This document shows positions 1,882-61,849 of a stretch of DNA of 64,000 bases, piece after piece; position 1 is the first letter of the stretch, and each line of letters begins with the position of its first letter. The translations under genes and the position numbers were made by a program. This DNA is from Theristus sp. LFF4_11 (Eukaryota > Nematoda > Chromadorea > Monhysterida > Xyalidae), in assembly GCA_030248135.1 (NCBI GenBank), contig JASANC010005474.1:102062-166061 (forward strand), in the 5' to 3' direction. Under the pieces are notes generated by a model. That model did not search any database. It was not told where the DNA came from and saw only the letters and a list, made by a program, of their open reading frames with translations.

Positions 1882-35957
<34,076 letters not shown>

Positions 35958-41400: not shown

Positions 41401-42176
41401 GCAAAATACAATATCTTCCAAGTCCGACATTACGTTTTAAAAATGGAGTGATCTTTAATTAGTATAAGTGCAAAAAGACTATGCTTAACTAAGCTTATGT
41501 ATCTACGTGCAGTGCTAGATCCCTTAGTTGGGTAAGGAAATCATATTTGATGGAAAGAAATTAGGGATTTCTTTGGTTATGGATTCAGGAAAGAAAATTT
41601 ACCAAATTATGGTAAACAAAGTATTATGCATTTAATTACTACATAACATAACGATACACCTTTAAAGAGACTGAAACGTTGCTTAAAAAAGCTATCTAAA
41701 AGCAGATTCCAAAAGTTTGGAGTTTAGGCGATTTAAAACGATTGAAAACGATGAGATATGCACATCACATGCACAAATGTATCGTTCTCAGCAATAGTAA
41801 GCCACAAAGAAAACCACCACAAACTGTTCGGTGCTAATGAGCAAGTAGTAAGTACATGCACATGATGACGAACCTTTTTTTACCATAGCCCATCATTTTC
41901 ATGCTTCTTATCAGAGTTGTGCTAGAAAGACAAAACAACACCGCGTACTAAAACAACAACAACTACAAACCAAACGAGCGTCGAAACGAACATGCTCGTG
42001 TTGCACATATGTACGTAGCTGATTGCTCGGATGGTCCAGGAATAGATTTGCAATTGCGCTGATTAAATGCGCATATGACGTAAGCGCGCAGAGCTAGTGC
42101 CGTTTAGGAGCTGCACGAGCAAGAGAAATACAGGTCAGTTATATAAAAGATTCATGTTTCTGTTTCAGCAATCATA

Positions 42177-42991
42177 TGTAGTGTGTATTTCTGCCACACA
42201 ACCCTAAAGCGCCGTATTCGCCAGCAGTCGCCACACGCGCTGTTCATCCACGTGGTCGTCTGCTGTGAACGCTAAACTACTTTCGCGTCTATACGGCTAG
42301 TGTTGAAACGTTGCGGTGGAACGCCCGTTGTGATGGTGCACACAGTGAACGCTGCACACTGAATGCGATCACGCACACAGTGGCTTATAATGACACACAC
42401 ATTTGATACTCTCTAACTTTTGCACTGAGCCATTATCTGCTCTCTGCCACTCATTCACGCAGTTATATGGGTTCCAAAACCTATATAAAGGCGAGAATTC
42501 GTGCCGAGATTCAGATGCTACAACTGCTACATTATCTCTCTTCAATACAGTCACCTATACTGTCATTTCAATATGTGAATCAATATTTCGTGCCCTCGCC
42601 TTGTATTTTTATATTAACTGTGGTACCGTTTGAGTACTGATAAAAACTGTTCTTGACTTAAGTTTTCGTCCGTTGGTGAAACAACCGCCGAGTAACGTAG
42701 GTCAACCTTTGTAAACCGCCGCAACCAACCAAAGTTGTTGCTATCCGGTGAAACCAAACTCGTCTCTAGGTAAAGGCCCTAGATCGAACGTTTGGTGGAA
42801 TCGACACGCAGTAACTTTAACGGAAGATAGTGCCTACTTCCGTGGTTCTTTTTGAAGTAACGCTGCCCTGTCGCCTGAAAGAATGAGCTATGAGCTTAGC
42901 TCGACTGACACCCGGCACTTGTAGCGCCTTCATTCAAACGAGTGTTGGCCGAGTAGTCGAAACGGCTGAAGGCTCGCCGAATGACACTACA
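42177..42991 (+). repeat. 5' LTR
   Basis: 815 bp, TGTAGTG...CACTACA. It contains a TATA box and, at its 3' end, the start codon of the internal ORF. Confidence 0.95.
42481..42490 (+). promoter_or_regulatory. TATA box in the 5' LTR
   Basis: CTATATAAAG lies about 400 bp upstream of the ORF start, and the same site is at 51523-51532 in the 3' LTR. It would place transcription start near 42510. Several short upstream ATGs follow, one overlapping the ORF start (42883). Confidence 0.6.
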
Positions 42992-45900
42992 AATGGAGGT
43001 CACGCCTCGAGCATGAACGAGGATTGCACTGACACAAATGGAGGTCACGCCTCGAGCATGAACGAGGATTGCACTGACACAAATGAAAGCTGCGCCTCGA
43101 GCATGAACTCGGGTTACCCGACATGTGGAGGTTCCGCCTCGAGAACGAACTCAAGCAGGGCTACCGCTACATGTGGAGAACCCTGTTGTGAGCAAGAACT
43201 TGAGATGGATGGCACCACTCGTCGGACAACGAAAGTCGCGTCTCCGGATGCGCAAACTGCGAAAGTAGCAGGACTAGCATCCTCGGATGTGAAACTGCGA
43301 AAACCGCAAAACTCCAAAGTCGCGTCTCCGGATGTGCAAACTGCAAAAGTAACAGGACTAGCATCCTCGGATGTGAAAACTGCGAAATCCGCAAAACTCA
43401 AAGTCGCGTCTAAGAGCGTGCAAACTGCGAAAGTAACAGGACTAGCATCCTTGGATGTGAAAACTGCGAAATCCGCAAAACTCAAAGTCGCGTCCCTGGA
43501 TGCGCAAACTGCGAAAGTAACAGGACTAGCATCCTCGGATGTGAAAACTGCGAAATCCGCACAAACTAAAGCCGCATCCACGGATGTGCACACGGCGAAA
43601 ATCGCCAAAGACGTATCTCCGGATGCGCAAATCAAAGACGTATCCTTGGGTACGCACACCAAAGACGCATCTAAGGATGTGCAAACTGCGAAAGTCGCTA
43701 AAAACGCATTTTCTGATGCGCAAACCAAAGACGCGAAAAAGAACTCGCAATCTGCGACTATCGCTAAAACTGCGACAGCAGTGCCACGAAGCGCCAAGAC
43801 CCGTAAAAAGGTTGACAGTGCTTTTGTTGGTGAAAAGAAAGGAGTGATATCAGATCCGCAAAAGAAGGAACTACCACCTTCAAGGCAAAATCTGAGTAAT
43901 ACAGCCAGCGGCACCCAAACAAAGGGAACAAAACGCTGCAAAGGTGACACTCAAGCCAACTCTGGCTCGGACCAACCTTCTGACGTTGAATCACGTTCCA
44001 ACGTGATTTTTACTGATGAAGACCATTTCGAACAACCAGACGTCGAACTCGGATTCTTTGCCGAAACAGACGTGGTGTCGCCATTGAAAAGAACAAAAAA
44101 GAAGGACCACACTGGAAACGCTCCAGAAGCGTGGACAGAAGTCAAAAAGAAGCAGAAAGAACCAAAACTGAAGTCACAGAACCCCAGAAAGGGTCAAGTC
44201 TTCACAGCATCCAAACCTGGACAAGGTGCATTGGCCTCCAACTCTGGACAAGCCACACCAGCCTCCAAACATGGACAAGCAACTGCAGCCTTCAAAAGTG
44301 GACAAGCTGTTACGGCTTCCAAAAACTTGAAAGCCACATCAGCCTCCAAACAAAAACAACCTGCAGTAACCTCCAAACCTGGACACACTGCGCCAGCTAA
44401 CAAGCCTGGTCGTGTTGAATCAGCCTTTAAAGCTGTACCAACCACCACACTTGCTCAAGCTGAAACAGCCTCCAAACATGGATTTGCTGTGAAAACCCAG
44501 AAAAAGGAGAAAGCTGAACCAACCATGAAAAGTGGCAAATTTGCACAAACCACGAACAGTGGACCATCAGCATTGCAGCCACTTCCATCGTTGGATAAGC
44601 CTCCGAAACCAACGCAAAATGACTTGAACCAAACACGCACGGATACGTCAAACATTCCGTGTACCCCAAGTCACACTTGCAGCAAAACACGATCAAAATC
44701 AAAACGTGTTTCATGCACCATGTGCCTTGGATGTGGTTCACCAGAAAAACAACCAAAGAAATCTGTGAGCCCAAACAAGGCCGCAGCATCTTTGAAATCG
44801 GTTCAACCTGAAAAGGGCACAAAACCATGTGTGCAAACTGACCAACCAGCTGAGGTGAAAAACCAAAAATCAGCACCATCCACCATCAAAAACTCGAAAA
44901 CCGAGACAAGCAAACAAACGCCTGATTCTGGTGTGAAAGCACAGAAAACCTCGAAGAAATCTGTTGCGAAAGCACGGAACAATTCGAAGGAATCTTTGGC
45001 TTTCAAAACAGACAACCAAAATCAAGCTCACTCAACCAAAGTGACGCCTAAGGTTGAAACACCACAGAAACCGAAACCTACGGGTACGGAAACTGAGGGT
45101 GCAAAATCAACCCAAACCAAGCAAGAACCGCCTTCAAACGCGGACAAGCAGAGTTCCAACTCTGAAAACCGTTCAATCAGTGAAAAACATCACGAAAGTG
45201 AGACGCATTTTACTGACCTGCAAAACAACGACGCACAAGCGTCAACCGACCAAAATTCAGGTCATGACAGTGTGAACGATTCGTTTGCTTTGGTCGACAT
45301 CTCGTTGCCCAAGCAGTCGCTATCTGAACACCAGAATGAAAGTGAGCCTGACCTCAAGGCCGAAACTGCTTGCAATAAGCTGGCAGAGTTGACCATTGAC
45401 AACAATCGGTCAGAAAATGAAACAGACACCGAGGTGATGCCTGAGATTGTCATGTTTGATGGTCAAGGCATGGTAACGATGAAAAATCGTTTTCCATTCC
45501 AAAATGTGTTCTGTTCACCTGACTACGATCCAGCAATCAAAGCTATTGCCGAAATGTCGTTTGAACAGAAACAAACGATTATTCCGAAGAGGGAAAATTT
45601 CGATTGGTTGAAGACCATGCCTGACTACGAAATGTGGTTTGCGCATAACACCGACGAACCTTACCCTCACAAGCTCAAGGAGCTGGAACGTGTCCTGATC
45701 GAAAAACATCTAATGGACACACCAATCATTCGCGTGAAAGACGAACAAGGCAATATGTCGTACCAATTGAATTGGTACCCATATCGCAACATCTATCGCG
45801 CACCTGACTACCAGCCGGAATACAAACAAATCCGGCGCATTCCAATCGAGCGTGTTTTGCCGATTGCAATGAACCGACAAAACCGTGAATGGATGAAGTC

Positions 45901-46960
45901 CATGACGGACTATCATCGCTTCTTCGATGATGAACATGGAATCTTGATCAACGCAGGACCAAAATACATTTTGGGCGCACCTGATTTTGATTCTACCGTG
46001 ACTCACATCGATTTTATCCATCACAAACGATTGATGGAATTGCGTGAAAAGCAAACAAACGACTTCTGGCTAGCCTGGATTGGTGATTCAATCCGAGCAC
46101 CAAGAGTCTATGAAAAACTCAGCTACACACCAGCTGACTTGATGTACGCAGACTCACCCATTATCGACTTTGCGTCTGAAGAGTTGAGACCAACTCAACC
46201 AGCCATAGTCAAAGAGCTGCTGCACTTGTCTGAACCACGATCTCGTGAAGACAACACGCCAGTGATACCGCCCCATAACCGTATGGAGGCCAAGAAACTG
46301 CGTGAATTCTGGCACAAGAAAATGGAACTTGAAGCGCGTGAAGACAGAACGGCTGAACTTTTGAACAGCTCTGAACGTGCACCTTTGCTGACGAGCAAGC
46401 CACGAAGACGAACAACCTTAATTGAACGTTCGTTCATCCCGACTCGCTCGAAACAGAAACAGCAAGCTCAGTCACTCTTAGACACTGAGGAAAAATCGCG
46501 TTCAAAACTAAAACGCCACTTGCTGAACGAAACCGAGCTCGACTTTCGTACAGTGTTTGCAGAGATGAAAAAGCGAAAACTGTCACCGAAAAGCGCGAGC
46601 AAGGGTTGTTCAACACCCGTGAAGTCCATGAGGAATGAAAGACAGTCAATACAGGTGTCAGCCGTACAGCTCAACCTGCCTTTGCCTGCTCTTCCGCCTC
46701 AAACGTTCTATCTCGGACTTCACCGCATGTACAAGACCATCAATGGCAAACAAAACACCATGCCAAAAGCTGCGGAACTGCTGCGTACTGGCTTATTTCA
46801 GTTCCCCGCTGGAGCGAAACTCAAGCTCGTAACGCCAGTGCCACAACCGACGACGATTGATAAATCACATCAATCATCGATCGTCGATACACCAAGAGCT
46901 GCTAGCACTTCAAGGAGTGACATCCTTGAAACAGTTACTATGCAGCAGCAAACAAACTGA
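42890..46960 (+). CDS. 1356-codon LTR-element protein of unknown function
   Basis: I do not recognise this protein. It starts in the LTR and runs unbroken to a TGA. In order: residues 1-35 from the LTR; Cys/Asn/Ser repeats (about 35-95); roughly 20-27-residue repeats such as AKVTGLASSDVKTAKSAK (about 110-300); a charged region; about ten units like ASKPGQGA or ASKHGQAT (about 430-560); a Cys cluster CTMCLGCG (about 610); a long Lys/Ser/Thr-rich stretch. From about 860 to 1100 the sequence is more ordered, with two or three diverged copies of a module containing PDYxP...W-L/M-K-S/T-M-x-DY. The C-terminal 250 residues are basic. No protease DTG, RT YxDD, integrase or CCHC knuckle is seen. It could be a highly derived Gag-like or nucleic-acid-binding protein, which is a guess. 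An uninterrupted 4-kb frame argues for selection or very recent origin. Confidence 0.85.
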   Translation: MSLARLTPGTCSAFIQTSVGRVVETAEGSPNDTTNGGHASSMNEDCTDTNGGHASSMNEDCTDTNESCASSMNSGYPTCGGSASRTNSSRATATCGEPCCEQELEMDGTTRRTTKVASPDAQTAKVAGLASSDVKLRKPQNSKVASPDVQTAKVTGLASSDVKTAKSAKLKVASKSVQTAKVTGLASLDVKTAKSAKLKVASLDAQTAKVTGLASSDVKTAKSAQTKAASTDVHTAKIAKDVSPDAQIKDVSLGTHTKDASKDVQTAKVAKNAFSDAQTKDAKKNSQSATIAKTATAVPRSAKTRKKVDSAFVGEKKGVISDPQKKELPPSRQNLSNTASGTQTKGTKRCKGDTQANSGSDQPSDVESRSNVIFTDEDHFEQPDVELGFFAETDVVSPLKRTKKKDHTGNAPEAWTEVKKKQKEPKLKSQNPRKGQVFTASKPGQGALASNSGQATPASKHGQATAAFKSGQAVTASKNLKATSASKQKQPAVTSKPGHTAPANKPGRVESAFKAVPTTTLAQAETASKHGFAVKTQKKEKAEPTMKSGKFAQTTNSGPSALQPLPSLDKPPKPTQNDLNQTRTDTSNIPCTPSHTCSKTRSKSKRVSCTMCLGCGSPEKQPKKSVSPNKAAASLKSVQPEKGTKPCVQTDQPAEVKNQKSAPSTIKNSKTETSKQTPDSGVKAQKTSKKSVAKARNNSKESLAFKTDNQNQAHSTKVTPKVETPQKPKPTGTETEGAKSTQTKQEPPSNADKQSSNSENRSISEKHHESETHFTDLQNNDAQASTDQNSGHDSVNDSFALVDISLPKQSLSEHQNESEPDLKAETACNKLAELTIDNNRSENETDTEVMPEIVMFDGQGMVTMKNRFPFQNVFCSPDYDPAIKAIAEMSFEQKQTIIPKRENFDWLKTMPDYEMWFAHNTDEPYPHKLKELERVLIEKHLMDTPIIRVKDEQGNMSYQLNWYPYRNIYRAPDYQPEYKQIRRIPIERVLPIAMNRQNREWMKSMTDYHRFFDDEHGILINAGPKYILGAPDFDSTVTHIDFIHHKRLMELREKQTNDFWLAWIGDSIRAPRVYEKLSYTPADLMYADSPIIDFASEELRPTQPAIVKELLHLSEPRSREDNTPVIPPHNRMEAKKLREFWHKKMELEAREDRTAELLNSSERAPLLTSKPRRRTTLIERSFIPTRSKQKQQAQSLLDTEEKSRSKLKRHLLNETELDFRTVFAEMKKRKLSPKSASKGCSTPVKSMRNERQSIQVSAVQLNLPLPALPPQTFYLGLHRMYKTINGKQNTMPKAAELLRTGLFQFPAGAKLKLVTPVPQPTTIDKSHQSSIVDTPRAASTSRSDILETVTMQQQTN
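42989..43125 (+). repeat. 45-bp tandem repeat spanning the primer-binding site
   Basis: Two units starting ACAAATGGAGGTCACGCC appear identical, followed by two more diverged units (GAAAGCTGCGCC, GGAGGTTCCGCC). The unit length is a multiple of three, so it is translated as repeated HASSMNEDCTDTN-like peptide. Confidence 0.9.
42994..43011 (+). other. Putative primer-binding site
   Basis: TGGAGGTCACGCCTCGAG begins two bases after the LTR end. TGG is the complement of a tRNA CCA end. I cannot name the tRNA. The same 18-mer recurs 45 bp downstream inside the tandem repeat. Confidence 0.55.
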
Positions 46961-47709
46961 AAAAGCAGTGAAAGTGATTAACCATACTTACAAGTAACAT
47001 TTTGGTTTCTCACCTACACGTCAACTCACAGTTGGATTACAACTACAAATCATAACTTGTGTGTTATACAAACCAATCTGGAGCCAAAATCCAGAGCAAT
47101 TTGTATTCATACAAACTACAATGGAAATAACATCCGGTACAATTTGCATACTGTATGGGAATGAATCCTGTCTTGATTCACCACTGTATAAATGCTCGTT
47201 GTACAACAACAACAACATCAATTTACCTCATGAAAGGCTGAAATGCTGAAAGAGGGACTGTAAAATGGCATTATGAAACGTGTGAATAATAGAAAGCATG
47301 CAAAAACATTATTGTTTACTGCGGCTACATTTTTCACAATTCATCTCTGCTATCAAATACAGGAAAAGGCCATCACAGCCAATCATCAACTGACGCCTGT
47401 TGCGCCGCGCCAGAAACATGGTACGCTTACAGCGCTAATGGCGAATAAAAAATATCACAAAAAGAACATACGCGTAATTTTGAAATCATGAAACAGTGAT
47501 GGATAAATTATGGAAATGTTCTGAAAAACTTTAGCAACATGGAATGAAAACTTTCTTTTGTTGTTAAAACACTCTTTCATTGCGCATCTACAGTTTTTGA
47601 AAGAACAGATTTTTTAAAACTGGTTCTTGAAAAGACGAAAGATTGTGACTGAAAGAAATGTGAAACAAAAATAACACCAAACACAATGCACCACATATTG
47701 AAAGAAAGC

Positions 47710-47882
47710 TTAATTGAAAAATTTCGCATCTTTTAATATTGTTGCTGCCAGACTTGACAACGTCTCGCCGTCCACCAGACGCTGGAACGGCCATTGTGTC
47801 TTGCTTGAATCATTATCTGATTCCGAATTCCGACACAACCAAATGCGCAGTCGGCTTTGAACTCGCAACCGCGATTCGTCGA
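47710..47882 (-). CDS. Antisense gene exon 3 with stop
   Basis: Acceptor GTTTCAG, 56 full codons then TAA; the other two frames close early. Confidence 0.65.
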
Positions 47883-49139
47883 CTGAAACGCAAACATAAC
47901 CTTTAAAAACAGCAACCTAAGCTGAAGTTCCGCAGTTGCGGGGGTGCAATTGCACTGCTGAAAACTTGGATTGCTGAATAAAGCTGAATAAACAAGTTTC
48001 AAACTTTCTTAGTTTGCGTGACAGCAAACATAGAAAACGAGAAACAAAATACAAAAATAAAAATTCCGCGCTTCAGAAAAATCAAGCGAGCAGACCTGAA
48101 CTGGCACTTGCGATCGCCGTGTCTTCAACCGTGGCCGCAGACGCCTCTGGTTGATGCACTTGGCCATCAGACGCTACGTTCTCCTTGGCTTCTGCAAATA
48201 AAAAAAATGTCAAAATATCGCAGTTTGCGGGGGTGCATGAAAATGCACCATATCAACCCAAAATCGATCTGACTGTGTGCTTTAAAATTTTTCAAGACAC
48301 ACACAGAAATTGAAAAATGGGACGCAGAATAAAGCTGTGAAATGATCAGCAAAACTTGCTACCTAAAAATCAATTAATTGTTTTGGAATTTTGAGTGCAC
48401 AGAGAACGAATCAAATTTGATTCAAACGCTTGAAATCGAAACAACACGAACTGAAAATGTTTCAGCTTGATGCTCTTGCACAAGTGAACAACCAACGTGA
48501 AAATCGTGCACATGACGTCAAAAATAATTTTTGGCTACGTTTTTGCACGTACACGACATGGAACAATTCCTAGTTCGAATCCAGCATGTGAAAATAAAAT
48601 TCAAATTGAAAACCAATTTGACTGAAAAATCATGTGCATGGATTGATTGAAACTGAAAAAAGCTCGGTCGCATGAAGACCGCACACACGAACAGAAAACT
48701 CAACCAAGTTTGATTTGGTTCGTGTGCATGCGAAAGATCGAAAATTGACTATGATACAGAAAGCTGAGTGCACAGGAACAAAAACGAAACTTGTTTGAAA
48801 TTTCTGGCACCCAAGCAAAAACTGATTCAACAAAAGTGAGTTTTCGACTCACATACACAAAAAACGCTGAACGTGAAAGGCTGCCCACATCAAATTGAGT
48901 CAAATTGAATCTGATTCAGTTTTTTTTTGAGCACCGACACGAACAGACAAAACTGCGCTTCAGTTAAAAATTGCTGCACACAAAAATGGAAACCAAATCA
49001 ATAATCGATTTGACTGAAATTTAAAGTGCGCAAACCCAAAGCTGAACTGCACAGAACTGAAAATAAAAACTGGACAAAATAAAAAGCTCTCACCTCTGCC
49101 GCCGGTGCTATTCAAGCCAGATCCGGACGCACGAGACAT
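47710..49139 (-). CDS. Antisense three-exon gene inside the LTR element (104 codons, unknown function)
   Basis: On the minus strand, exon 1 (49094-49139) starts at an ATG and encodes MSRASGSGLNSTGGR. Exon 2 (48096-48191) encodes E-AKENVASDGQVHQPEASAA, then TVEDTAIASASS. Exon 3 (47710-47882) encodes V-DESRLRVQSRLRIWLCRNS, then ETLSSLAATILKDAKFFN and TAA. Junctions are GTGAGA...TTTGCAG and GTCTGC...GTTTCAG, and the phases (1, then 1) match exactly. Both introns carry CACCCCCGCAAMTGCG about 40-60 nt before the acceptor. I do not recognise the protein; it has a disordered acidic first half and a basic then amphipathic second half. Introns removable only from antisense RNA would be lost if the gene were copied through a spliced antisense transcript, but they survive sense-strand retrotransposition. 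Confidence 0.65.
48096..48191 (-). CDS. Antisense gene exon 2
   Basis: Acceptor ATTTGCAG, donor GTCTGC, 96 bp, phase 1 in and out. Confidence 0.65.
49094..49139 (-). CDS. Antisense gene exon 1
   Basis: ATG at 49139, 15 codons plus one base, donor GTGAGA. Confidence 0.6.
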
Positions 49140-49621
49140 GTTGAGCAAGAATTCGTGCAGTTGTCGTCAATGAGAAATTTTTCTTTCAATTTTTTTCTTC
49201 ATGAAATGCCGCTGATGAGAACAAAATCGTGTTTTCTGTCAGCGACCTGAAGTGAAGAAATAAAATTTGAAGACTAAAAACTCAGACGAACGACCACGGA
49301 AAAATTGAAAACGGCTAAAAATAATTTGATTGGACAAAATAAACATAAAAAAACCAATCAACCACAACCCATGGGTGTGGGAAATTCACCTGAATTCTCA
49401 ACCGAACAGGTGAGAAGGAAAGGAGGAGAAAGCAAAACGGCCAAACATACTGGCCAGCTTCCGCATCCACCTTCAAAAACTTCAAAACCTTCAAAAAAAA
49501 AACAATTTTCCAAAAATGAACTTAGCATTCTCCACAAAAAAAAAAGTTGAGCATTCAACTAATGGCAGAATATCATACTCATTCGATGGGAAAAATGAAC
49601 CAAATACAATAATAATCTAAC

Positions 49622-49765
49622 CACGAAGAATTCCGCGCCTCAATACAATGAAGAGCGCAAATTCCTCGCTTCAATAAAACGAAGCGCGCAAATTTAGCGC
49701 TTCGCAAACATCATGCGAGCAAATTCCTCGCTACAACAAAACTAAGCGCGCAAATTTTGTGCGCC
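49622..49765. repeat. 31-bp degenerate tandem repeat in the LTR element
   Basis: About four units like GCGCAAATTCCTCGCTTCAA followed by ACGAAGC in the 3' non-coding part of the element. Confidence 0.8.
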
Positions 49766-51200
49766 ATAAAAAATGTTTCAAACCCTCACCTGGTATATTC
49801 AGCGACCAGCTGAAAACAAACCAGCATCAAATGTGCAGGGACCAAAAATAGCCTGTGCTGCACTTAATTAACTATGCACACAAGGAAACCGCGACTAATG
49901 TCGACCACACTGACACCATCGTACTCGAAAACTGAGTCACTACTCAGTGGCGATCTGTGTTCACAGTTTGAAAATACAACGTCCAGAATCAAACTTGAGG
50001 CAACAATGAACAAACCCATTGGGGCGACAAAAAGAACTACTACGTAGAATCGCAATTATTATTGCAGAATTCGAAGTAGTCGAGAACTTGTCAGCGGGTA
50101 GAGTTAACGAAGCCGCCAAGGGCAGCTGAACAATCGCTGCAAACTTTGAAATGCAAAGAAACCCGTCATCGAGGTCAAGCATTCCAAAGCTCACAACACC
50201 TTCACACTGATGCGTGAATACGAAAAGTTCCAAAAGCTGTAAAAGATCATTGCAAATTGCGTCTTGACTGATGAGCAATCGACCACAAAAAATGCAAAGA
50301 TCGATAAAAACGCGCTTGTCCGCAAAGATCCTTCGCATATCGTTGGTGCGTTCCAAAGTCGTAATGACTGAACACACATTTATTGATGTACCAACGTATG
50401 CCTTTCATTTCTTGAACACGTGGAAAAGTACTGCGCACAAACTAAACAAGGTTTTGCAGGCACCCACTGCTGGTGGAGTCACTCCCCATGCGCTGGGAAT
50501 GCACGCCCGGTACTGCTCACAAACAAAATTTGTTCGGAATGAAAGGGGTCGTTGCACTCATCGTAATGATGGGCGCACACTATTCAAAGCGGATTAATTA
50601 AATGCGCAACGATCTATATGCGAGACAGGTCACACTCGCTCGTCGACAGAGTCGCCAAGATTATCATGGCTTGCTAATGGACAGTATTCGCCAAATAAAG
50701 AACTGGTTGTGAAGCGAACAAAATCGCATAACCTCGGATGCAATCTGAAACTTTGCAACACCAACAATTACTTGGGCTTCAGATTAATCCTCCCGTCATG
50801 ATCGTTCTTGCTCGTCGCGTTCGGCGAACTCATGATTCTGACAAGGTTGGACAAACTGAACAAAAAGAGCCACTGAAAGTTTGATGACAAAGAGTTACGA
50901 AAAATGACACACACTTTTAAACCAATAACTTCAAAATCATTGGTAAAATCTACAAATGCCAACTTCTTCTAAAAACCTTCTGCACTAACCATCACGTGCG
51001 CCGAAAATCGTCAAGGGTACCGAGCACGCACACACACTCACAGTGGAATGTGGTCAGTGGTATCAATGGACGACTGCACGCGTAACGTAAATGGGTAACC
51101 AGAGGTAGAAAGTTTTATTTTTTTCTAACACCACTCTAACCTAATCTTTGCTCTTTTCTCAAACCTACTTTTAGCAAAAAGATCGATAGGGGCATCGATA

Positions 51201-51218
51201 TCGCAGTTACGGGGGTGA
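51201..51218 (+). other. Putative polypurine tract at the 3' LTR
   Basis: CGCAGTTACGGGGGTGA directly abuts the 3' LTR. The purine run is short. Near-copies of this motif occur at 47930-47947 and 48219-48236 inside the element. Confidence 0.45.
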
Positions 51219-52033
51219 TGTAGTGTGTATTTCTGCCACACAACCCTAAAGCGCCGTATTCGCCAGCAGTCGCCACACGCGCTGTTCATCCACGTGGTCG
51301 TCTGCTGTGAACGCTAAACTACTTTCGCGTCTATACGGCTAGTGTTGAAACGTTGCGGTGGAACGCCCGTTGTGATGGTGCACACAGTGAACGCTGCACA
51401 CTGAATGCGATCACGCACACAGTGGCTTATAATGACACACACATTTGATACTCTCTAACTTTTGCACTGAGCCATTATCTGCTCTCTGCCACTCATTCAC
51501 GCAGTTATATGGGTTCCAAAACCTATATAAAGGCGAGAATTCGTGCCGAGATTCAGATGCTACAACTGCTACATTATCTCTCTTCAATACAGTCACCTAT
51601 ACTGTCATTTCAATATGTGAATCAATATTTCGTGCCCTCGCCTTGTATTTTTATATTAACTGTGGTACCGTTTGAGTACTGATAAAAACTGTTCTTGACT
51701 TAAGTTTTCGTCCGTTGGTGAAACAACCGCCGAGTAACGTAGGTCAACCTTTGTAAACCGCCGCAACCAACCAAAGTTGTTGCTATCCGGTGAAACCAAA
51801 CTCGTCTCTAGGTAAAGGCCCTAGATCGAACGTTTGGTGGAATCGACACGCAGTAACTTTAACGGAAGATAGTGCCTACTTCCGTGGTTCTTTTTGAAGT
51901 AACGCTGCCCTGTCGCCTGAAAGAATGAGCTATGAGCTTAGCTCGACTGACACCCGGCACTTGTAGCGCCTTCATTCAAACGAGTGTTGGCCGAGTAGTC
52001 GAAACGGCTGAAGGCTCGCCGAATGACACTACA
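51219..52033 (+). repeat. 3' LTR
   Basis: Same 815-bp sequence as the 5' LTR in the same orientation. Frames found in one LTR recur unchanged in the other at a constant offset. Confidence 0.95.
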
Positions 52034-54402
52034 CATATATCCAGACAGCTGGCCACGGTTTCACACATCCGAATTGAGATTGAGAACAATAATAATAATA
52101 ATAAAGTAAGTTACAAAGATGCATTAATTGGGCAAGATGCAATATCGCGTGATGACAATAAAAATTCCCATATCTTGAATTTCTTGTGATCGTTATAATC
52201 GCGATCAAATAAACTCGCTCTGCGCCATACTCGTATATTTTGCGGGGGGAACTGGAACAAAAATGCGACAGAAAGTTCTGGAACTTCGCTGCTGTGTGTG
52301 GCGGACACTTGTATCTTATGCATGAGCTTCTCTTATTAAAAAATTCCGTCCTTTTTTTGGGTCATCATTGAAAAACATCCTGATGCTTGCCGATCAAAGG
52401 ATTGTCAAGGAGTCCCGCCAGGACCTTTCAAGTCCGCCTAATCAGAAGGCGTTGCACTTTATTATTATCTTTCTTGTTGAACGGCATCGTTATGTTCAAT
52501 TACACGCACACATAGGGGAAATGTTTCACGGCTGCGCGGCAATTTGATATCAGCACCACTGAATGTAATCTAATGAAAGGTTTGGGCAAGAAAATAAAAA
52601 AACAACAAATCAGATTCTTTTGTTCACGAAACAAAATATTTTTCAATTCATATTCGTCCATCGTCCGGGTGCGAAACCTCGCGTTAATTCAGTTTTCAGC
52701 TGTGCGGTTTTTCCACACACCATTCAACATCACTACTCCGCCTCATTCGCACGAAAACATCCCACAGATACACAGTACCTACAATTGTTGCAAAGTCACA
52801 CTCACACCCGCTCGCACTGACAAGCACACGCTGACACGCGCACGTGCCTGTGTGTTTGTTTCCGACTGTACACACTGCATTGTACGACAACCGAGTGAAT
52901 GTTTTGAGACCGGCACTTTAGCAGCTATGTGAAATCATTAGGTAAGATAATGAATTATTTGTGACCCTCTGGCGTTGCTTCCGTCCGACCCCCCCCGCCC
53001 CCGGTTGAATTTGCAACAAATTCGTACCCGATTCCAGTTTGTAAGTGGTTCCCCGATCACAATCACTAAATCACTCAAAAAGATCCGAAGGGATTCAATT
53101 TAAAAAATGCACTAAATACCTCACTGCGTCATACCGTAATAAGACAAACAGGCAAACATGTCACATTTAAACCGATCACTTTGTGGCAAATTACTGAGCG
53201 AAGCTTTCAATGAAAAAAGAATGAACCGGCATCGGGTTTGGCCGGGGAATCAAGAACCCCGTTTGTGGTGAAATTTGTTCGTTGTGTAACTCGGCCCCGT
53301 TACTTTTTCTTCCGCAAGCTCTGTATTTCGCTGAAAAGATGCCAGCTTAAAAGAAAGAAGCATCTAAAAAATCTTGAGGACTGAAAACAATGAGCGTACC
53401 CGTTATGATCAACAGCGACATATCAGGCAGATCGAACCTCATGGTATCCTTTTTCTTTGACAGTGGCACTGGAACCAGCTGGATTCGACGATTTCCACGA
53501 TTTTTACGGTTCGTTTACGTGAATTTTCAGCTGCACGTTTGTTCAGTCTGTATATTCGTATTGTTGTAATTCGAAAGAGCGGTGTGTGGCGTCCGTCAGG
53601 AATGTACTGTCCGACTAAACTAAGTAGATGCCATGTAGAATTAAACGATTTTTTCACCCCATTGTATCGTGTGCTCTTTGAGCGACAAATCAGTCACAAA
53701 GTACTGTATATGTTCAGGAGTTTTATTTCTATCCTATTATTCAAAATTGTTATTCGTTAAAATAATTCTGCGTTGCCGTGATTTGTGAGCAGCACGCTGC
53801 CGATGACAAATTATTTCCTCAACTGATTAATTTCATAATATTCAAATTCCTTTCAGCAAACGTGAGATTTCAATTACCGTGCCGGTGTGTTCAAATTTGG
53901 TTTTTCAATACAGCGACAGATGAATTGGCTCCTTTTCGGGTCAGGACCTTAAAAAAGAAAAAAACAAAACAAAATAGGGATTGTTTGATTAAAAAAACAA
54001 CAACCGGTATGTACATATCATCTCTATATTGTTGCTGAAAGTCTGATTCATCCCAAAGTGAATTGTACCTACAGTATGTATAAGATGTAGTATTCAGTAA
54101 CCATAAAAACATACCAGGTTTCAAATATAACACCTTACTGAAAACATGTTTATTTGTATAGCATCGCGGTTTAATCTGTGGGGAAGGATAAATCTCTTGA
54201 AACCTTGAACATGCAGTTTCGATTCAGTCGATGCTTGGCAAAAAAAATAAATCCAGTGCAGGAGTGCAAATCATGATGCACATTTTAATTTTCTTACTGT
54301 AGTTCACCAAATAAAGCTTCAGGTTTCATGAGATCGTAAACATCAACAAACAAATTTCACAAAATGAAGAATTGGAGAAGCATTGTGCAGAGTCGTCGTT
54401 TA

Positions 54403-59801: not shown

Positions 59802-61849
59802 CTGCAAAGGGTGCACGGTGAAAACAACAACAACAACTGTTCAACGCAGCGTTTCACACAACAAAAAAACGCAATGTTCTGCGTGACGTTTCACGAAACG
59901 TTTCACACAATGTTCAACGCAGCGTTTCACACAACGTTTCGTGCATATACAGTAGCGCTTCACGCAACGTTTAAAACGCAATGTTCCGCGTGACGTTTCA
60001 CGAAACGTTTCACACAATGTTCAACGCAACGTTTCACACAATGTTCAACGCAACGTTTCACACAACGTTTCACACTAATGTTCAGCGCAACGTTTCACAC
60101 AATGTTCAACGCAACGTTTCACACAACGTTTCACGCAACGTTTCACACAACGTTTCACGCAACGTTTCTTACAACCGCTGAACATCTGTTCAGTTCTTTG
60201 TTGTGCGTTTCAGTGAACGTACCGTGTTCGACGGAGCCACAGAAGATCTCGGCAGGCGTCAGTTGAACGAAATCGCTCGTCAGCCACTGCTTGCTGGTCA
60301 CATTCTCGTCAGCAACCCGATGACTCCGACGCCACCAAAATCGCTCCGTCAAAACCGCGTCACGTTTCACAGCACGCCGCATGTTCTCGAAGACCTGGCG
60401 CAGGTTCAGAGAAGAATAAAAAACGGACGAGAAAAAGTGAATGAATGCAATGGATACTACTGCTGCCGACGTCTGAAACGGCTACAAACACATCATGCTT
60501 TATAATAAACATGCTAAGTAGCCGTTTTAGCTGGCCGCTTTTAAGTAGCCCTGTTTTGGTTTATTTTTCTGCGAGAAGGACGTGTGTTTACACCAGTTTT
60601 GACATGCATTTATTCCAATTCGTGGTTTGTTCACCATCGTAATCGGCATTATCGCGTGTAGACGACGTTCGAACATCAATCGACTGATCAGAAAGACGAG
60701 CACGGCGAACGCCGCGTTCGCGCGGGTGGTCGGTTGAATTTCGCACGGTCGAAACTCGACCTTCCAGCCGCTGCGACCGTCAGACGGCGGCAGATGCAGA
60801 CGAACGGTGCGCCAGTGGAACAGGTGCAGATTCTGAAAGAGTTCGGTGCACACTGATTCGGGTCCTTTTGCACTGAGAACGTTGGGTGCGGAACAATAGT
60901 GTCACCGGAGCGCTTATAAATGCTGTGCTGTCTTGGAAACAAGGCTGATGATTATAAAAAACAGTCTGTGTCTCGCCATAAGAAGGCCCCGGTGCAATAG
61001 CAATCAGCCGAAGGAGCAAAAAAAATCCGTGATGCGTACGTTTGTGCAGCCCTATGCAAACCTCAAAGTCTTCGTCGGTCAGGTGGTCGTCGAGGCCAAC
61101 GCGTTCCTTGTAGACTTGCAGCGGCTCACGGATGAAAAGATGGGCGATCTCGCGGGCAAGTTGCGCTGGCACGTCATCTGGCGAAACAATGGCACAGGGG
61201 AAGTAAAACTGCATTGTGTCGAAACGACATTGGAAGAAAAATACAAACGGGTAAAATTAACATTGGATACTTCGTTCGGTGAAATTGTGGTGAGTAAAAC
61301 GACATTGTGGAAATGACATTGGGTAAAACGAAGTTAGTCAAAATTTCATGGGTAACAATTACATTGGGAAAATCTTCGGAGTAAAACCACAAAACCACCG
61401 GTAAAATTATATCGAGTGAAAAAGATGGATTTTGGAGGGAACACACCCAGCTAGCGAATTTTTTGACTGTGAAATCCTAGTGTCATGAAACATCCTGATT
61501 GTACCATTTGATCAGCCAATAAGCATAAACCAACAAAAAATAAACATTTTGTTTAGTAACCAGTAGCCAATCAGCACTCAGACCAATGCAACAAAATGTT
61601 TGACGTTTCTTTTCTTTCCTCTGTTTTCAATGATTTGCTTTTCTCAGTCGGTGTGGGTAAAAATAAGTCAACCTTTCAACAGTTGATTGTACGCCTCCAG
61701 ATCATACGGCACCGGAGCGTTGTTGTATTTTTGAAAGATCGGTGTGTTGTAAGAATCAACCGATTCAAATCGGCTTGTCGGAATGTGACAGTGGCCGGAC
61801 AACGGGCTCACGTTGAAGTTTCGCTCGTCTTCCGTTCGATCGTCGAGGC
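59518..61849 (-). CDS. GCLC: Glutamate-cysteine ligase catalytic subunit, C-terminal half (five exons)
   Basis: GCLC joins glutamate to cysteine with ATP, the first and rate-limiting step of glutathione synthesis in the cytosol. Five minus-strand exons join in phase and give about 316 residues that match the second half of animal GCLC (about 637 residues in human). They read LDDRTEDERNF; SRFESVDSY; REIAHLFIREPLQVYKERVG (human AHLFIRDPLTLFEE); FHWRTVRLHLPPSDGRSGWK; VEFRPCEIQPT (human VEFRPMEVQLT); ENMRRAVKRDAV (human ENMKVAQKRDAV); and a C-terminal helical tail ending LILSE with TAA. The 5' half, with much of the active site, is not found between 61.85 kb and the window end, where a plus-strand channel gene begins. 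Donors GTTGAC and GTTTGC are weak. Confidence 0.95.
59860..60180. repeat. Minisatellite CACGCAACGTTTCACACAACGTTT in the last GCLC intron
   Basis: Some twenty units of 11-12 bp (AACGTTTCACR, ATGTTCAACGC) fill most of the 421-bp intron. Confidence 0.9.
60223..60394 (-). CDS. GCLC: GCLC exon (ENMRRAVKRDAV)
   Basis: Encodes VFENMRRAVKRDAVLTERFW, then LTPAEIFCGSVEH. Donor GTACGT, phase 1 out. Relative to human GCLC the loop after KRDAVL differs strongly. Confidence 0.93.
60635..60832 (-). CDS. GCLC: GCLC exon (VEFRP)
   Basis: 66 codons from NLHLFHWRTVRLHLPPSDG through VEFRPCEIQP to RRLHAIMPITM, between CTTTCAG and GTGAAC. Confidence 0.95.
61062..61177 (-). CDS. GCLC: GCLC exon (AHLFIREPL)
   Basis: Encodes DDVPAQLAREIAHLFIREPL, then VYKERVGLDDHLTDEDFE. 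Acceptor CGCCAG, donor GTTTGC, phase 1 in and phase 0 out. Confidence 0.95.
61205..61400. repeat. Degenerate GACATTGGGTAAAACGA repeat in a GCLC intron
   Basis: At least six imperfect units of ACATTG or ATTGGGTAAAA occur between two GCLC exons. Confidence 0.6.
61673..61849 (-). CDS. GCLC: GCLC exon (first in window)
   Basis: Acceptor ATCAG, encodes LDDRTEDERNF through SRFESVDSYNTPIFQKYNNA and AYNQLLK, donor GTTGAC. It enters in phase 1, so at least one upstream exon must exist. Confidence 0.92.

Follow-up and report, generated by a model that had tools for sequence, protein, structure and literature searches.

A young LTR element without detectable pol in the nematode Theristus sp. LFF4_11 appears to keep the pre-capsid head of a giant Ty3/Gypsy-type Gag

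Described relatives and the composition of the element

To our knowledge, non-autonomous long terminal repeat (LTR) elements usually retain either nothing that codes or a Gag that bears the capsid. TR-GAG elements, reportedly described from plants by Chaparro et al. in 2015, retain a GAG domain by definition. Here, we analysed an LTR element at positions 42177..52033 of a 64,000-nt stretch of DNA (hereafter, the window) from the nematode Theristus sp. LFF4_11 (contig JASANC010005474.1). Its 1356-codon open reading frame (ORF) appears to encode the pre-capsid, N-terminal head of a giant Ty3/Gypsy-type Gag, no pol was found in the frames scanned, and comparison of copies suggests that the head frame has been maintained by selection. 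Copies and relatives were sought in the 159-Mb assembly of the host (3744 contigs), in which the contig of the window element is C3478 and others are designated likewise. The assembly has eight matches to the TTR-52 family (PF01060), which is typical of nematodes; all eight exceed the family cut-off, five are on C2127 (one of these with stops), and they suit a nematode host. Fourteen control genomes had no such match, a comparison of limited weight because those named are prokaryotes. An earlier reading of the window, made without searches (hereafter, the sequence-only reading), is compared with our results where they bear on it.

TR-GAG elements (PMC5818461) resemble the window element in being LTR elements without pol that keep a Gag-derived ORF and are taken to depend on autonomous relatives. 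In contrast, the window ORF has no capsid or nucleocapsid match (no PF03732) and seems to comprise the pre-capsid part only, and its host is a nematode. Thus, of the traits that define TR-GAGs, the absence of pol was observed within the frames scanned, whereas a recognisable GAG domain was not found. Large retrotransposon derivatives (LARDs) and terminal-repeat retrotransposons in miniature (TRIMs) are likewise non-autonomous, with complete LTRs, a primer-binding site and a polypurine tract, but they are described as lacking coding regions (PMC5818461), whereas the window element codes for the 1356-codon ORF. A LARD or TRIM identity was rejected because of this apparently selected ORF. The sequence-only reading had also set the element apart from LARDs and called it non-autonomous, and our results support both.

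In ETn/MusD, the bovine ERVK[2-1-LTR] D-type and RecKoRV, the central segment has been swapped, the flanking gag and 3' parts are kept, and the elements are mobilised in trans (PMC10924933). The window element shares with them the central replacement and the retention of LTRs with flanking gag and 3' parts. It differs in being apparently Ty3/Gypsy-derived, not ERVK, a label that rests on the descent of the Gag head, as no protease, reverse transcriptase (RT), RNase H and integrase (PR-RT-RH-IN) pol was found in the element. Furthermore, the bovine D-type is described as having no intact ORF, whereas the 1356-codon frame is open and seemingly selected. The pattern resembles that of a hitch-hiker, in which a central segment is replaced and flanks are shared with a competent relative, here known only in pieces.

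In Cer1, a Ty3/Gypsy element of C. elegans, the polyprotein is 2272 aa long and includes pol, and Gag measures 690 aa; exons 1-3 of CERV, which is produced by splicing, lie in the gag reading frame, and CERV is required for the export of genomic RNA (PMC10309623). The same source proposes that an N-terminal Gag domain outside the capsid targets Gag to P granules, gives KRKK as a nuclear localisation signal (NLS) and names the class of this motif. Compared by description only, the window element is similar in being an apparently Ty3/Gypsy-derived nematode element with a putative non-capsid N-terminal Gag part and an NLS-like motif, but Cer1 has pol and a smaller Gag, and CERV is spliced, whereas no pol was found in the window element. 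The genomic RNAs of Ty3 and Ty1, probed by selective 2'-hydroxyl acylation analysed by primer extension (SHAPE), are mosaics of which up to 30% is highly structured (PMC11381356). The window element likewise has structured regions in its predicted genomic RNA, although the figure of 18/22 segments with z <= -3 comes from a different, purely computed measure. No pol-less LTR element keeping just the pre-capsid region of Gag was found in the open-licence PubMed Central literature, as covered by titles and the starts of abstracts.

The element, its missing enzymes and its Gag homologue

The boundaries proposed in the sequence-only reading were confirmed. The 5' and 3' LTRs are 815 bp each with 0/815 differences between them, they start with TGTAGTG and finish with CACTACA, and CATA is duplicated on either side of the element. 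Paired direct LTRs, TG..CA ends, a target duplication, a primer-binding site and a polypurine tract, which is G-rich and lies upstream of the 3' LTR, are all present, as in an LTR retrotransposon. The sole sense gene of that reading, uninterrupted over 1356 codons, is stop-free here too, and its first 34 codons lie in the 5' LTR. Four features had gone unnoticed in that reading: the dead second ORF, the primer site for tRNA-Gln, the preference for YATR targets and the pervasive folding predicted for the sense strand. The parts of the element are as follows.

42173..42176, unstranded: target-site duplication CATA, left; the same 4 nt at 52034-52037
42177..42991, plus: 5' LTR, TGTAGTG...CACTACA, containing TATATAAAGG at 42482
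42890..46960, plus: putative Gag-head ORF, 1356 codons, with its ATG within the 5' LTR; 52% identical to the N-terminal region of the Gag frame on C1060
42994..43011, plus: primer-binding site, tRNA-Gln(TTG); complementarity to the host tRNA 3' end at 12/13 first nt, 14/18 overall
46961..49891, plus: non-coding body of 2.9 kb, with DNA matches solely in window-family copies and a sense strand predicted to be strongly folded
49892..50873, plus: remnant of a second large ORF, frame-broken; open in the relative C1606 (at least 1059 aa)
50936..51216, plus: 3' internal end, ~71% identity to a sister family by DNA comparison
51202..51217, plus: polypurine-tract motif CGCAGTTACGGGGGTG, preceding the 3' LTR; the sister family has CACAGTTGCGGGGGTCA at the equivalent place
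51219..52033, plus: 3' LTR, identical to the 5' LTR
52034..52037, unstranded: target-site duplication CATA, right; the same 4 nt at 42173-42176

The sequence-only reading had found no pol readable on either strand, and the searches agreed. The ORF has no Pfam domain (best E 0.74, under the cut-off). RT, RNase H, integrase and protease were absent at E <= 0.1 from 18 of the 26 stop-to-stop frames of at least 60 aa that overlap 46961-51218, and from two frames antisense to the ORF. The genome-wide integrase search (139/139 candidates scored) listed no match inside the element, and that for RT (150/415 candidates scored) had none inside it among the matches listed. A capsid or pol relic downstream of the ORF was rejected after tblastn of residues 1100-2318 of the C1060 frame, the Gag homologue described below: one match was significant, at the head's end (46460-46975), the rest had E >= 2.3, and no significant trace was seen past the head's end. 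The remnant at 49892-50873 has stops in 6/6 window-family copies reaching that region. Its counterpart on C1606 (9803-13894), where at least 1059 codons are open, lies towards the 3' end of a related element and has neither a Pfam nor a database match.

A genome search with the window protein found two frames outside the family, one of 2349 aa on C1060 and one of 715 aa on C321. Residues 279-1209 align with residues 116-1079 of the C1060 frame at 52% identity (1001 aligned positions), and residues 1212-1353 with 1325-1485 at 44%. The C1060 frame, in which the head reaches 1494, continues to Retrotrans_gag (PF03732) at 1940-2039 (E 1.8e-8, above the cut-off), after which its translation contains CPDCGAWAPPHKPNC. 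This comparison was limited to the first 2318 residues because the last part of the frame lies in a contig-end inverted duplication. Since the window protein aligns to a frame that runs on into Retrotrans_gag, it appears to be the pre-capsid, N-terminal head of a giant Ty3/Gypsy-type Gag. On C1060, a Ty3-type capsid domain follows the homologous region; it has no match in the ORF of the element. The sequence-only reading is incomplete on this point: the protein has no Pfam domain, but it would be part of a giant Gag rather than a stand-alone novelty. The C321 ORF likewise begins inside an LTR (MSTSQRTPGT vs MSLARLTPGT in the window). The exact 1028-bp inverted duplication in the C1060 Gag frame (locus 1-1028 and 1968-2995) is either an assembly artefact or a real palindrome.

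Giant Gags are suggested to be common in the host genome by Ty3-type single Gag-Pol frames of about 2900-3300 aa on eight contigs (C2083, C286, C958, C3230, C2891, C142, C769 and C351; 2921-3321 aa), each with capsid, RT and integrase in one frame. On C3230, ~1,340-1,600 residues lie ahead of the capsid match, as judged from frame length and match positions alone. The C1060 frame had no match to these eight at E<=1 (20/86 candidates scored), nor had its capsid region at E<=1e-5 (44/44 scored). Within the head ORF, the following features were recognised.

42989..43165, plus: 45-nt tandem repeat
43227..43725, plus: 84-nt (28-aa) tandem repeat; unit number varies among copies by whole codons
45377..46414, plus: PDY module, residues 830-1175, conserved by nonsynonymous-to-synonymous (N:S) counts and in the comparison with C1060
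45485..45640, plus: 52-aa internal duplication, copy one, residues 866-917
45770..45925, plus: the same duplication, copy two, residues 961-1012
46568..46579, plus: KKRK in EMKKRKLSP, NLS-like; the motif is also in the C1060 Gag frame

The 52-aa duplication lies within the PDY module and scored 115 against a shuffle maximum of 51 (0/2000 shuffles as high); a putative third copy is weak, with 20 and 28 of 2000 shuffles equally good. The flanks of the head protein are basic (pI 9.5 and 10.3).

Copies, selection and predicted RNA folding

The search for LTR copies that the sequence-only reading had proposed returned at least 12 LTRs at 98% identity or more, in at least nine insertions, counts that are lower bounds, with 40/71 candidates scored. 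Both LTRs are present in three (C3478, the window; C3614; C1253), four are cut by contig ends (C293, C3020, C520, C2565) and two are solo LTRs (C2513, C3595). The insertions are recent, since the paired LTRs within the three two-LTR copies show 0, 5 and 5 differences over 815 sites. All nine insertions have a YATR flank (CATG 5, TATG 3, CATA 1; background 1.55%); both sides could be read and agreed in four (window, C3614, C2513, C3595), and one side was read in five. The 3' LTR of C1253 finishes with CACCATA followed by a long A-rich stretch, instead of CACTACA and a target duplication.

The head frame is open and free of frameshifts in 6/7 insertions that hold part of it, and in five copies the ORF, as far as assembled, is stop-free. 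In raw alignments of the ORF DNA, length changes are repeat units only, apart from one C3020 gap that is an end artefact. Openness is partly built into the codon alignment because each copy's longest open frame was used; the stop-free count across the assembled ORFs is independent evidence. Over the 4,258 nt of non-coding DNA next to the ORF, these copies have 56 distinct gap runs, of which 43 are of a length indivisible by three. Six copies diverge in non-coding DNA by 1.7-3.5% with at least 14 gaps per pair. Across the ORF copies, 109 distinct substitutions were counted, with 28/kb in residues 416-1356 vs 48/kb in the adjacent non-coding DNA. The PDY module is under purifying selection: its N:S count within the family is 10:12 vs 14.9:6.2 expected (P 0.006). 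Against C1060, its nonsynonymous divergence (dN) is 0.117, with synonymous divergence (dS) saturated, and dN of the flanking head regions is 0.43-0.57. Selection thus seems to maintain the head frame among copies in none of which pol is found and, as they share the pol-less structure, this selection would have acted after pol loss, unless there was conversion from a complete relative. That a giant protein is preserved, as the sequence-only reading had stated, is borne out by these counts. Neither of the outcomes it had named as contrary was observed: no LTR-free host gene was found, and the frame is open in other copies instead of being stop-ridden in all of them.

The fold energies of 300-nt segments were compared with those of dinucleotide shuffles as z-scores. 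Mean z was -3.83 for the sense strand of the ORF (13 segments, 11 <=-3) and -3.83 for the sense strand of 46961-49810 (9 segments, 7 <=-3), with antisense means of -2.44 (ORF) and -2.19 (middle region) and host-flank means of -0.1 to -0.4 on either strand, or -0.1 to -0.3 when the sense strand is taken alone. Thus, the sense RNA of the ORF and the middle region is predicted to fold far beyond shuffled controls, whereas host flanks are not. The LTR had a mean of -2.84 (4 segments) and the dead-ORF region one of -1.6, and an overlapping scan also shows weaker segments (e.g., -1.06 at 48911). The least variable non-coding block, 48861..49160 (+), with 2 variable sites/300 nt in six copies, has a fold z of -3.5. 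Elsewhere, values were -3.83 (C3614 ORF), -2.83 (C1060 Gag), -2.67 (C321 Gag), -2.32 (sister 3' internal end), -1.79 (C1606 ORF) and +0.83 (a retroelement-like frame on C29); other flanks ranged from -0.2 to -1.5 (plus strand) and from -0.2 to -1.7 (minus strand). When codons were shuffled synonymously, with protein and codon usage fixed, the window ORF had a mean z of -3.56 (12/13 segments <=-2), C3614 -3.32 and C1060 -2.34; the controls gave -1.51 (C1606 ORF), 0.08 (C29 frame) and -0.4, 0.8 and -0.27 (three long open frames of the window, candidate genes; 9 segments).

The ORF region might be kept for its fold, as a packaging or dimerisation signal, and not for a protein. The strong sense-strand folding predicted in both the ORF and the non-coding body would suit this, and cis effects of retained gag segments have been suggested for ETn-like pairs (PMC10924933); however, an RNA role requires neither whole-codon indels nor the absence of stops nor the synonymous excess in the PDY module, and we consider it quite unlikely. 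Alternatively, the head ORF could be a young Gag leftover, undecayed and functionless. The youth of the insertions, the lack of amino-acid-level constraint in residues 1-829 and the existence of an ORF-dead copy (C520) are what such a leftover would show. Nevertheless, the five open copies are frameshift-free despite their non-coding divergence and gaps, the neighbouring second ORF is stopped in every copy reaching it, and the PDY module departs from the expected N:S ratio, which makes a functionless leftover improbable.

Several other features were observed in or near these regions. A polypurine-like copy inside the element (47931-47946) has one mismatch to the tract before the 3' LTR; 2 matches to this motif were found vs 0.30 expected, and 3/100 shuffles were equally good. 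On the minus strand of the middle region, an antisense two-exon mini-ORF of 51 codons (48082-49139), with good splice sites, is a candidate.

49094..49139, minus: possible antisense exon 1 (ATG to GT donor), identical in six copies
48082..48191, minus: possible antisense exon 2 (AG acceptor to TGA), interrupted by a stop in C3614

Small Arg/Ser-rich frames lie on the minus strand past the second large ORF on C1606 (locus 246-524) and on C716 of the sister family; they share 50% identity over 46 aa between C1606 and that family and look RS-domain-like by eye. Outside the element, an exon-like frame at 60780-61256 (minus) matches glutamate-cysteine ligase (PF03074, E 5.9e-6) and is probably part of a host gene, and a long (GT)n microsatellite at 7857-8348 leaves several frames open. 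Neither the tRNA and Rfam scans of the window nor the tRNA scans of 18 loci found any hit.

A partner in pieces and the possible role of the head

An LTR block at about 42437-42635 is 78-81% identical to the LTRs of related families, and the 0.3 kb immediately upstream of the 3' LTR has ~71% identity to that of the sister family, whose LTRs start with TGTAATGTG and end with CTACA and which has the identical kind of G-rich tract before its 3' LTR. C321 holds a complete LTR, a head frame and a second LTR copy that is without its first part and is 91% identical where aligned. Its LTR is 99.2-99.9% identical to the LTRs of C265, C3742 and C1884, and over residues 17-522 its head shares 99% identity with that of C1060. 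Because the C321 LTR matches the sister family and its head matches the capsid-linked C1060 head, the sister family appears to carry both head and capsid, although it is known only in pieces. C321 itself (2538-5968) is a short derivative, probably recombinant, in which a 715-codon Gag-head frame runs into the truncated second LTR between CTTA and CATG flanks. At least two host tRNA-Gln genes end in GGGACCT, and the primer site agrees with tRNA-Gln TTG at 13/13 first positions in C321 and 12/13 in the window. Four shared features, namely an LTR block, the LTR ends, the primer site for tRNA-Gln and the polypurine end, make trans-mobilisation by the sister family the likely mode.

We regard as probable, on balance, the whole explanation that this is a young non-autonomous Ty3/Gypsy-derived element that keeps a Gag head, is mobilised in trans and uses the head as an RNA adaptor. 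Its first part, a trans-mobilised Gag-head element, is very probable, whereas a role of the head as an adaptor in RNA export or packaging is proposed tentatively, by analogy. The ancestor would have been a Ty3/Gypsy-type element with a giant Gag, of which the LTRs, primer site, polypurine end and pre-capsid head were retained. Transcription would start from the LTR TATA, the head would be translated from the ATG inside the LTR, and reverse transcription and integration would proceed through the partner's enzymes. In the least certain steps, the head may act on its own RNA ahead of assembly: it would be imported into the nucleus, associate with the folded genomic RNA and assist in the export or delivery of that RNA. 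It may also join the partner's full-length Gag by head-head contacts, with the partner's capsid, RT and integrase copying the element. The CERV-like role is suggested by analogy with CERV and the N-terminal Gag domain of Cer1, and the KKRK motif shared with C1060, the basic flanks, the strongly folded RNA and the loss of post-assembly parts would fit it. It is unlikely, though conceivable, that the element keeps precisely the RNA-handling, pre-assembly part of the giant Gag together with a genomic RNA folded over most of its length, and that head and folded RNA form a dedicated loading system by which a capsid-less, pol-less element outcompetes its autonomous relatives for particles. Of the roles suggested in the sequence-only reading, packaging and the capture of a partner's machinery are plausible, and for host interaction of the protein no support was found.

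Several observations weigh against this account. Residues 1-829 of the head showed no detectable amino-acid-level constraint (N/S 1.23 and 0.81 of expectation), with pairwise ratios up to 1.05, and pairwise dN/dS over the whole ORF, the comparison proposed in the sequence-only reading, is just 0.21-0.77. The head ORF of C520 is 12% diverged (268/2222 sites), with 8 small indels and stops, and is fused, at a deletion, to a young 3' half. Provision of the head in cis is thus not essential, and on at least one occasion a sequence with a dead ORF was mobilised or recombined. The target preference of the sister and related families is looser than YATR, as their flanks include CATG, CATT, AATG and CATA (both sides of C1226) and the unmatched CTTA and CATG of C321. 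The partner is also incomplete: relatives sharing the LTR ends and primer site that the sequence-only reading had sought were found, but no single contig shows the sister family whole. The C1060 Gag frame is without its 5' end, runs into a contig-end palindrome and has no pol linked, and 13 of the 14 near-identical sister 3' ends are interrupted no more than 250 nt from a contig end, the other, that of C2936, breaking off inside its contig. Substitution support for the fold is weak. Pair-breaking changes in the middle region numbered 64 vs 78.3 expected (P 0.007; P 0.106 with majority-state sites only), and the ORF showed no clear deficit of them. Changes keeping pairing on both sides numbered 15 vs 9.5 expected between the window and C1060 (16/500 shuffles) and 14 vs 8.7 in the reverse test (14/500 shuffles); the kept-pair count of this test was left unused because its null destroys shared ancestry. 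Furthermore, no homologue of the window protein was found in protein databases, PDB sequences or viral contigs, and single-sequence structure prediction of the PDY module reached a mean predicted local distance difference test (pLDDT) score of 33.6 and was not used.

An enzyme-free Gag fragment could also poison or tune the partner's particles and be kept because this serves the host or the control of the element. The trans-dominant inhibitor p22 of Ty1 is a precedent (PMC4599808), and the copies are few (at least nine insertions). Such interference has little probability here, as the head protein is entirely without a capsid domain and selection for interference would leave the element's own spread unexplained. 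Capture of a host gene by an LTR element, to which the very large ORF without a Pfam match might point, was rejected as practically negligible in probability, as the strong genomic matches belong either to LTR elements of this group or to Gag fragments of the same family, and the homologous frame continues into Retrotrans_gag.

The trans-mobilised Gag-head element that we favour would mean that evolution has dissected Gag, keeping its non-capsid head alone, under selection, in pol-less copies. The role of large pre-capsid Gag regions thereby becomes directly testable by the removal of one ORF, and the sense-strand folding is a second testable trait that could help to explain the packaging success of hitch-hikers. 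If the loading system considered above exists, the giant Gag head would be a separable adaptor for genomic RNA in a nematode Ty3 clade.

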